A stretch of DNA of 64,000 bases, from contig NZ_CP018632.1 of assembly GCF_002215215.1 (NCBI RefSeq), positions 2,352,501 to 2,416,500 on the forward strand, given 5' to 3'. The notes beneath the pieces were generated by a model. That model made no database searches, was not told where the DNA came from, and was given only the letters and a program-made list of their open reading frames with translations. This stretch comes from Granulosicoccus antarcticus IMCC3135. GTDB lineage: Bacteria > Pseudomonadota > Gammaproteobacteria > Granulosicoccales > Granulosicoccaceae. Shown piece after piece: positions 38,157 through 40,454 of this stretch (within the stretch, counting starts at the first letter, position 1; each line of letters opens with the position of its first letter). The position numbers and the translations under genes were made by a program.

Positions 38157-38639
38157 ATGCCCACATTCGATGTTGTATCTGAAGTTGATCAACATGAACT
38201 CAGCAATGCCGTTGATCATACTCAGCGAGAGATTGGCACTCGCTTTGATTTCAAGGGTACATCAGCCAAGGCCGAGTTGGCTGATGGAAACATCATGTTA
38301 CACGCCGATAGTGATTTCCAGATTCAGCAGATTCATCCAGTGCTGTATCAGAAATTGACGGCGCGCAAAATTGATATCGCCTGTCTGGAAGCTGGCAAGG
38401 TGGAAAACAGCGGCAAAGGTGTCAAGCAGCTGGTCAAGGTCAAGCAAGGTATCGACAAGGACGTTGCCAAAAAAGCCATGGTCAAGATCAAGGAATCCAA
38501 GCTCAAGGTACAGGCGCAGGTGCAGGGCGAGCAGTTACGGGTTACCGGCAAGAAACGTGATGATCTGCAGGCTGCCATGGCGTTGCTGAAAGCGGCAGAG
38601 CTGGGCGTACCATTGCAATACCAGAACTTCCGCGACTAA
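38157..38639 (+). CDS. yajQ: YajQ family nucleotide-binding protein
   Basis: A 160-residue cytoplasmic protein with two ferredoxin-like halves. PTFDVVSEVDQHELSNAVD, EIGTRFDFKG and VKVKQGIDKDVAKK, LRVTGKKRDDLQAAMALLK are characteristic. Xanthomonas homologues bind cyclic di-GMP and act as effectors; others bind nucleotides. It is divergent from the DUF423 gene, 39 bases away. Confidence 0.93.
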   Translation: MPTFDVVSEVDQHELSNAVDHTQREIGTRFDFKGTSAKAELADGNIMLHADSDFQIQQIHPVLYQKLTARKIDIACLEAGKVENSGKGVKQLVKVKQGIDKDVAKKAMVKIKESKLKVQAQVQGEQLRVTGKKRDDLQAAMALLKAAELGVPLQYQNFRD

Positions 38640-38656
38640 GCGACCGACCCGACCTC

Positions 38657-39490
38657 TTATCGACAATGGTAGACGTCATACCGGGTATTGGGTGATTCCA
38701 TCTCGGTTCGCTGGCCTTGCCAGGTGCCCGTGTCTCCCAGAAGCTCTGCTCCCCGTGGACGTTTGACAACCACGCGATCAACCGGGCACTGCAAGGCTGC
38801 GTGCAGGAGTCTGGCGCCAGCTTCAGCCTCGGCCGGACCCAGCAGGGCATGCAGAAATTGCATGCCCTTGCGTGAGCCGGCTTTTTTGCGGCTGCGCTCC
38901 GGGTACATCGGATCCAGATAGATCACCTGTCCGGTAGCGGTGGGGAGCAATTGTTCCGCTGTGCCCGCAAGCAAGGTGATACGCGATGCAATCTCACAGG
39001 TGTCAGGATGTTCGATGGCTCTTGCCAGAGCATTGGCCAGTAAGGCATGCACGATCGGATGGCGCTCGATCATGGTGATCGGCATGCCCAGCGATGCAAG
39101 TGCCCAGCTATCCTGTCCCAGTCCGCCGGTGGCATCAATGATGGAGGGCAGGGTTCCGAATTTCTTGCGATAGCCGGGTGCTCCCAGAGCCCTGGCCAGT
39201 GGCTGAATACCCTTGCCGGCCTCTTTGGCGCGATGACGGGCTTTGCCCGAACTGAAATCGATGGATAGTTTCACCCCATCGGGTCTGACAAGCTCCAGAG
39301 TGTCAATCTGCTCTGCATCGGCAGGCTCTGCTGAGCGACGCTGTACCAAGGCCCAGCTTTGGCTGGGCAGGCAATCCTGCACAGCGATGCCCAATGCATC
39401 AAAAATATTGGCCACCGGCATGCCCGAGCTGGCCGGATCACAGGCTGACTCACGAAAACCGATAAGTATCGGAGGCGTCCATTCATTCAT
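38657..39490 (-). CDS. rsmJ: 16S rRNA (guanine1516-N2)-methyltransferase
   Basis: A 277-residue SAM-dependent methyltransferase. The SAM motif is IDATGGLGQDSWALASLG, followed by MIERHPIVHALL and the catalytic IYLDPMYPERSRKKAGSRKGM; VVVKRPRGAELL lies near the C-terminus. About 25 residues longer than the E. coli enzyme at its N-terminal half, within family range. Convergent with yajQ and divergent from the Rieske-like gene. Confidence 0.93.
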   Translation of the reverse strand: MNEWTPPILIGFRESACDPASSGMPVANIFDALGIAVQDCLPSQSWALVQRRSAEPADAEQIDTLELVRPDGVKLSIDFSSGKARHRAKEAGKGIQPLARALGAPGYRKKFGTLPSIIDATGGLGQDSWALASLGMPITMIERHPIVHALLANALARAIEHPDTCEIASRITLLAGTAEQLLPTATGQVIYLDPMYPERSRKKAGSRKGMQFLHALLGPAEAEAGARLLHAALQCPVDRVVVKRPRGAELLGDTGTWQGQRTEMESPNTRYDVYHCR

Positions 39491-39543
39491 CGGTGCCGTA
39501 CACTCTGTATTCCACCCATCTGCCTGCTAAGGCACTGCCATCC

Positions 39544-40128
39544 ATGTCCGTTAAACCCACCTCTGTTGAAGACCAGCAACGGCGTCTGAAATTGCGCGTC
39601 GCTGTCAAATTGATGTTGTCCCTGGGCGTACTGGGTGTGCTGTATGTCTTTATCGCCGGACTTCGCTCGGGTGGCGGGGATGTGGACGATGTGCCTAGTC
39701 TGCGCGTCAGTACGGCCGATTTGCTGCCTGGCCAGCATCGCCTGCTGTCCTGGGAAGGGCGGCCTGTCATGCTCTACCGACGGCAAGACAGCGATTATGC
39801 CAATCTGCGAACACCTGACGAGCGACTGAGCGATCCGCAATCGGCAAAATCGATACAGCCTCAGACCATGGCTACGCCATTCAGATCGGCGACGCCCGAT
39901 GTGTTTGTCGCCATAGCGCTGGGTACCGATCAAGGTTGCTCGATCAGTTTCCTGCCACCGGATGACAGCCTTTTTCAGAGGCTGCCGTGGACGGGGGGCT
40001 TTGTCGATAGCTGCCGCAAATCCCGATACGATGTCGCCGGCCGCGTCTATGAGACGCAGTACGCAGACAAGAATCTGGTGGTGCCACCGTACACCTTCAA
40101 CGATGAGGTGCTTATTCTGGGGCGTTGA
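39544..40128 (+). CDS. Rieske-fold membrane-anchored protein lacking the iron-sulfur ligands
   Basis: A 194-residue protein with one N-terminal membrane helix (about 18-40) and a C-terminal domain laid out like the Rieske subunit of cytochrome bc1. VSTADLLPGQHRLLSWEGRPVML matches the Rieske N-strands, and DVAGRVYETQYADKNLVVPPY the strands after box II. Box I (CTHLGC in Rieske) reads GTDQGC (127-132) and box II (CPCHGS) reads DSCRKS (155-160): both cysteine and both histidine ligands are lost, while the two cysteines that form the disulfide (Cys132, Cys157) remain. ATG 39544 is preferred to GTG 39493, which would start 2 bases from the divergent rsmJ start. Function unknown. Confidence 0.7.
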   Translation: MSVKPTSVEDQQRRLKLRVAVKLMLSLGVLGVLYVFIAGLRSGGGDVDDVPSLRVSTADLLPGQHRLLSWEGRPVMLYRRQDSDYANLRTPDERLSDPQSAKSIQPQTMATPFRSATPDVFVAIALGTDQGCSISFLPPDDSLFQRLPWTGGFVDSCRKSRYDVAGRVYETQYADKNLVVPPYTFNDEVLILGR

Positions 40129-40132
40129 CAAT

Positions 40133-40369
40133 TTAATAGTGCGGCGGCAGTTCATCAGTGGTCGATGGTGTGTCTGCTGAGTCAGTAGAGCCGTGCATAC
40201 GATTCATCAGTTCGTTTTGCTGAAGCTGCAGGCGTTCGATGTCACGGTATTGCCGCAAGATGACTTCATGCAGCTCCTGTACGGTGTTTTCAACGTCCAT
40301 GAGCTTCAGTTCAAGCGTCTCGATTCTGGCATCAACGGCAGGATCGGTGGGGTATGTGGATTCACTCAT
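40133..40369 (-). CDS. slyX: SlyX family protein
   Basis: A 78-residue protein, mainly one coiled coil (ARIETLELKLMDVENTVQEL, then EVILRQYRDIERLQLQ), with the usual C-terminal DELPPHY tail of SlyX. Function unknown. The ATG at 40369 is chosen: the reading frame continues upstream but with non-SlyX sequence lying antisense to gatC. Its stop is 4 bases from the convergent Rieske-like gene. Confidence 0.9.
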   Translation of the reverse strand: MSESTYPTDPAVDARIETLELKLMDVENTVQELHEVILRQYRDIERLQLQQNELMNRMHGSTDSADTPSTTDELPPHY

Positions 40370-40454
40370 GTGTGCTTGCTTGCGGGTTATCAGGGTCTGA
40401 AGGCCTACAGTATGATAGATTGCGGCGCTTGAAACCAAGACTGGACTGACGCTT

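Follow-up and report, generated by a model that had tools for sequence, protein, structure and literature searches.

The window, a 64,000-nucleotide stretch of the Granulosicoccus antarcticus IMCC3135 genome, encodes a protein that belongs to a cofactor-free branch, maintained by selection, of the Rieske subunits of bc1 (respiratory complex III). It is the cluster by which Rieske proteins are defined. In this case, a duplicate of the bc1 type has been stripped of its ligands, of the loop that covers the cluster, and of the signal for folded export. This ligand-less copy, referred to as the pseudo-Rieske protein, is kept by selection in genomes that nearly always possess a working PetA as well. 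The best explanation, with a probability of roughly 0.7, is that it is an old, selected, cofactor-free protein, probably inserted through Sec, that serves as a disulfide-clamped protein-binding domain of the cell envelope.

The gene is located at 39544..40128 on the forward strand, where all of its features described below also lie. The open reading frame was confirmed, with an ATG at 39544, a stop codon at 40126-40128, and 194 encoded amino acids. A GTG at 39493 is a possible alternative start; conservation within the family starts near the ATG. A helix is predicted at aa 8-41 (39565..39666) from the AlphaFold2 secondary structure, and it begins with RR..LR...K. This helix is probably a membrane anchor and, judged by motif comparison, is not a Tat-type signal. 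The predicted model places a Rieske head domain at about aa 53-194 (39700..40125). In the alignment to the Pseudomonas aeruginosa bc1 Rieske protein (8smr_C), box I is GTDQGC (aa 127-132; 39922..39939) and box II is DSCRKS (aa 155-160; 40006..40023). The positions that bind the cluster in Rieske proteins are filled by G127, D129, D155, and R158, and the disulfide positions are filled by C132 and C157. The proline-loop position, which is PAP in most true Rieske sequences, aligns with Y173-A174-D175 (40060..40068). No CXXC motif was found in the window protein. The original prediction of a membrane anchor and a bc1 Rieske-like domain, in which exactly the four ligands are replaced and both disulfide cysteines are kept, was borne out by the open reading frame, the TIGR01416 match, and the alignment to 8smr_C. 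A sequencing or frame artefact was ruled out because tens of other genomes show this pattern too. A foreign origin of the gene was also considered, and its GC3 of 0.64, compared with 0.59-0.61 in four neighbours, is nothing unusual.

Membership in the bc1 Rieske family is indicated by both profile and structure comparisons. TIGR01416, the proteobacterial bc1 Rieske model, matches the pseudo-Rieske protein over profile positions 1-172 of 176 (E 4.2e-23). The score of 82.2 bits is below the cut-off of 97.4, and the curated model by itself does not assign the protein. TIGR01416 was the only NCBIfam model that matched. No Pfam family, Rieske PF00355 included, was matched at E <= 10 in a search whose HMMER filters drop most weak matches. 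Among 23 diverse ligand-less members, all match TIGR01416 at E <= 1, a figure that concerns detection and not the cut-off, and none matches PF00355. Because the window protein scores under the PetA model cut-off and has no Pfam match, proteins of this kind may go unnamed, and any that score higher may be mistaken for PetA. The best solved sequence relatives are the P. aeruginosa subunit 8smr_C (phmmer 3e-24) and TtPetA, 7yr9 (2e-20). AlphaFold2, supplied with 29 aligned rows, predicted the helix, a less certain linker, and a beta-sandwich with a pLDDT of 92.3. When compared with the PDB, the predicted head superposes on 7yr9_A with a Z of 22.9 and 1.6 A over 142 residues, as would be expected if the domain has the Rieske fold that had been proposed. 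The full chain superposes on 8smr_C with the same Z, 22.9, and 5.8 A over 184; the larger rmsd probably reflects a different angle between head and helix. The far-diverged relative L134, 158 aa long, likewise has a predicted Rieske fold (pLDDT 92.4), which superposes on 7yr9_A with a Z of 15.8 and 2.0 A over 116 residues.

Of the features that characterize PetA, the head fold with one membrane helix is present in the predicted model, and the two cysteines that would join the two loops are present as residues. The two Cys and two His ligands (C.H..C and C.CH) are absent, as are a Tat signal, judged by motif, and a place in petABC. The pseudo-Rieske protein should not be called PetA, since it fails the defining ligand test, and for the same reason it is not a [2Fe-2S] redox protein, as had been proposed.

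The genome of 7.78 Mb is a single contig that contains the pseudo-Rieske gene at 2.392 Mb. An ordinary petABC is present elsewhere, at about 6.686-6.689 Mb (G000:C1), with cytochrome b, cytochrome c1, and a true PetA that has CTHLGC/CPCHGS boxes and a PF00355 match. The original prediction had placed the gene away from any bc1 operon and next to rsmJ, slyX, and gatCAB, and this agrees with what was found. The genes nearest to it are rsmJ (38657..39490, reverse strand), which is divergent and matches Pfam SAM_MT, and slyX (40133..40435, reverse strand), which is convergent and matches Pfam SlyX. The GatC neighbour is likewise supported by Pfam. A gene that we take to be yajQ is found at 38157..38639 on the forward strand through tblastn and profile matches, and a homologue at another locus (L093) matches DUF520. 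The rsmJ, slyX, and yajQ genes are syntenic neighbours of ligand-less copies in other genomes.

The residues lost and kept were compared between 65 distinct ligand-less and 82 distinct true sequences. True sequences were defined as having all four ligands, so their 82/82 is by construction and the ligand-less side is the informative one. Frames of less than 90 aa, exact or contained duplicates, L152, and six rows with one or both boxes missing (L039, L129, L145, L146, L180, and L192) were dropped before counting; L141 and L147 were kept in spite of one gapped ligand column each. All four ligands are lost in 62/65 ligand-less sequences, while L135 and L154 keep one His and L144 keeps both. No Cys is found at 127 or 155 in any of the 65 (one gap at 127); with L152 included, Cys would stand there in 1/66. 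Position 127 is Gly in 49/65, and position 155 is Asp in 51 and Glu in 11 (D or E in 62/65). Positions 129 and 158 hold D/R, G/D, A/D, T/G, and other pairs, without the conservation of a metal ligand. C132 and C157 are each kept in 64/65, and the exceptions (L137 and L127, respectively) look by eye like alignment shifts. Together with G166, these cysteines are the three most conserved columns over the 65 sequences. Only four residues are invariant across 20 divergent members: both of these cysteines, a Gly, and a Leu.

A few individual sequences stand out. L144 (2704-3627) has lost both Cys ligands and kept both His (GPHYGC ... DPCHDI), and it might bind a single metal ion. L152 (2970-3587) contains a Rieske domain with a PF00355 match and the boxes CTFDGC/CPCCGS, an unusual ligand set in which both ligand Cys are kept and Phe and Cys stand at the His positions. 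In L143 (2977-4152) and L135 (2729-3676), the open frame continues past the ligand-less Rieske-like domain into ankyrin repeats (Pfam Ank).

Two other features of PetA appear to have changed along with the ligands. Proline at position 175 is found in 1/65 ligand-less sequences (10 gapped) and in 73/82 true ones. Twin Arg followed by ten uncharged residues was found in 0/63 ligand-less and 63/77 true sequences, with rows lacking an aligned N-terminus left out; a looser twin-Arg pattern, [KR]R.[FLMV]L, remains in 12/63 and 73/77, respectively. In the anchor, 91% of the ligand-less sequences retain K22 and 80% retain R18, positions at which true PetA most often has Thr. The title of PMC8432897 links Tat to the bc1 Rieske subunit of P. 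aeruginosa. As the ligands, the proline loop, and the Tat-like signal changed while the fold and the loop cysteines stayed, it appears that the ligands, the cluster cover, and the signal for folded export were lost together. This coordinated loss goes beyond the original prediction, as does the spread of the family through its class described below.

Residues 129 and 158 covary in the 65 ligand-less sequences. D129 and R158 occur together in 31 and are both missing in 28, with 3 and 3 in the mixed classes (Fisher 8e-12). On the tree, there are two starred independent pairs, of which 1.7 agree on average. The covariation could fit an ion pair that replaces the metal bridge, and it remains a suggestion because the tree holds too few independent changes.

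Ligand-less relatives are spread over many families of one class, the Gammaproteobacteria. Every one of the 48 genomes of the order has a match to the query (E <= 0.001), usually at two places, part of which were read. Of 30 copies read that are not PetA, 29 show the G[TS][DGA]..C / D.C pattern, and the sole exception, L039, leaves the frame before box I near a contig end. In the class sample, at least 35 of 369 genomes carry a ligand-less copy. Four of these belong to the window's own family, and the other 31, from 23 families, contribute 32 loci. Named carriers outside Granulosicoccus and its relatives are Ectothiorhodospira mobilis, Thioalkalivibrio sulfidiphilus, and T. denitrificans. The count comes from two profile searches and a search of 54 multi-match and 30 low-scoring genomes, with the fetched matches read. 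It is a lower bound that may hide genomes with only a pseudo-Rieske gene, because genomes with a single match of middle score were only partly read. In a sample of 398 genomes of the phylum, 16 match at E <= 1e-44. One is the genome of the window itself, and the other 15 belong to its class and score like true PetA (153-168 bits). Since this threshold is strict, the phylum sample cannot show absence beyond the class.

The possibility that the gene is a relic, a redundant petA copy that is losing function, was weighed against these data. One of the 30 copies of the order leaves its frame (L039, above) and an N-terminal remnant (L212) is present in genome G203, as decay would produce. Against this, dN/dS (omega) is 0.10-0.38 in 12 of 15 pairs, the other three being saturated in dS, and the two cysteines are among the three most conserved columns in a set that includes 23 families besides that of the window. 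Synteny is also conserved. One or more of rsmJ, yajQ, DUF423, and slyX was found in the flank of 30/30 distinct own-family copies, 20/35 other ligand-less loci, and 0/82 true loci, where about 0.1 to 6 kb of flank was read; rsmJ alone was found in 29/30 and 18/35, respectively. Both the selection and the conservation results contradict decay, which is highly improbable. That purifying selection maintains the ligand-less family is well supported. The original prediction that the gene is maintained, with ligand losses and cysteines conserved in orthologues, holds up on these counts.

The pseudo-Rieske gene likely arose as a PetA paralogue in the Gammaproteobacteria, once or a few times, with one origin the likelier from the trees. 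A tree built without the ligand columns, from all 65 ligand-less sequences and 31 of the 82 true ones (PetA of the window's genome plus 30 chosen at random), separates the two groups by one change with a weak support of 71, and by one with a support of 99 when seven long-branch rows are removed. The tree is unrooted and long branches may attract, so a single origin is likely but short of proven. Separate origins are possible because 15 of the 35 loci outside the family have no syntenic markers. The non-syntenic copies with annotated neighbours adjoin lolB/ispE (L154), lolB (L156), a mltD-like gene, sohB/pirin, dnaQ, or a mutM-like gene. L154, L155, L156, and L210 form a subgroup whose first ligand position is E or D and whose flanks, as read, contain no rsmJ; lolB lies beside L154 and L156, a mltD-like gene beside L155, and a mutM-like gene beside L210.

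The neighbours were also explored as a guide to function, and guilt by association gave nothing. No common partner was seen among the annotated neighbours of ligand-less copies. Of yajQ, rsmJ, DUF423, and slyX, which vary in orientation, each is a housekeeping gene or has no known function, and several other copies adjoin unrelated housekeeping genes. At L148 (3505-5556), the gene upstream of a ligand-less copy and on its strand encodes a protein with a PKD-like domain and with below-cut-off matches of the cytochrome c type.

An accessory or assembly subunit of bc1, which would bind PetB/PetC or PetA either as a substitute for the working Rieske subunit or alongside it, is weakly favoured as a role and is possible, if tentative. 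Homology to the bc1 Rieske subunit points in this direction, and a true PetA was found in 34 of 35 carriers, from 30 genomes checked (28 by pattern and 2 by eye) together with G000, G406, G308, and G354. A cytochrome c1 match is present in 33/35 carriers and in 290/369 of all class-sample genomes (Fisher 0.016), where this value and the other co-occurrence p value, 0.0037, ignore phylogeny and draw on matches that were only partly read. However, in none of those 34 carriers is the true PetA close to the pseudo-Rieske gene, the two being on different contigs or separated by at least 250 kb, and G178, a 95% complete draft of about 300 contigs that carries L134, gave no PetA or cytochrome c1 match. 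A Rieske head docks by its cluster loops and proline loop, and these are among the changed parts. The two cysteines could instead do the work, cycling between dithiol and disulfide as a sensor or electron carrier. They are the only chemically reactive invariant residues in the 20 divergent members, and the gene next to L134 encodes a thioredoxin-like/NHL protein. This reading is unlikely, since in true Rieske proteins the corresponding cysteines form a plain structural disulfide, the window protein has no CXXC, and the thioredoxin-like neighbour occurs at one locus only.

A bolder form of the thiol proposal, in which an ancient bc1-type clade would have traded its cluster for a disulfide that acts as a redox switch or sensor at the membrane, with D129-R158 tuning the loops, is quite unlikely. 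If it were true, a one-electron metal carrier would have become a thiol protein on the same fold. A mononuclear metal site, built from the new Asp/Glu or remaining His, is very unlikely. Position 155, a former Cys ligand, is nearly always acidic, L144 has Gly and Asp in place of the Cys ligands but still both His, and cluster-free TtPetA is reported to bind ZnCl2 at the cluster site (PMC10492824). That Zn is held by two Cys ligands in the same account, which are absent here, and positions 129 and 158 are not conserved as metal ligands would be.

The cofactor-free, protein-binding reading can be put together as follows. A PetA paralogue would have lost its [2Fe-2S] site and then been kept by selection. 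Its N-terminal helix probably holds it in the inner membrane, and the head would lie in the periplasm. Having no cluster, it would need no folded export, and by motif the Tat-like signal appears replaced by a positively charged plain anchor, so that it is probably Sec-inserted. The predicted head retains the Rieske beta-sandwich, and the two former cluster loops are probably pinned by a disulfide between C132 and C157, of which the cysteines are observed. In many members, the loops are possibly pinned as well by an Asp-Arg pair where the two His ligands once stood, as the covariation suggests. Without ligands, Rieske-type electron transfer would be impossible, and a structural role, most likely as a tethered protein-binding domain in the envelope, can be inferred. 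Within the respiratory chain it could act as an accessory or assembly factor, with bc1 as the candidate partner. The partner is the weakest step and is tentative.

The family is a natural setting in which to test what role the conserved disulfide of Rieske proteins has once the cluster is gone, and why PetA needs Tat. It also bears on whether cofactor-free look-alikes serve as partners of respiratory complexes. In the open-access literature searched, no account of a bc1-type Rieske family lacking the cluster was found. Compared with bc1 PetA (TIGR01416; 8smr, 7yr9/7yra), the pseudo-Rieske protein is alike in length, N-terminal helix, head fold, the two disulfide cysteines, and motifs around W70, D97, Q105-P106, R114, and D163-x-AGR. 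Unlike PetA, it has no Cys/His ligands, no Tat-type signal by motif, and no PAP proline loop, it is not encoded in petABC, it scores below the TIGR01416 cut-off, and its anchor has the conserved R18 and K22. NirD, the small subunit of NADH nitrite reductase, has a Rieske fold without cluster ligands. It is a soluble, cytoplasmic part of NirBD, with no membrane anchor and no bc1-type disulfide. As generally described, NirD is a precedent for a ligand-free Rieske fold, and a cluster-free Rieske protein is therefore not wholly new in kind. The immature, Zn-containing TtPetA (7yr9), a tied best structural match, resembles the pseudo-Rieske protein in that its head is folded without [2Fe-2S]. According to PMC10492824, that protein keeps all of its ligands and can be reconstituted with the cluster, whereas in the window protein the cluster ligands have been replaced.
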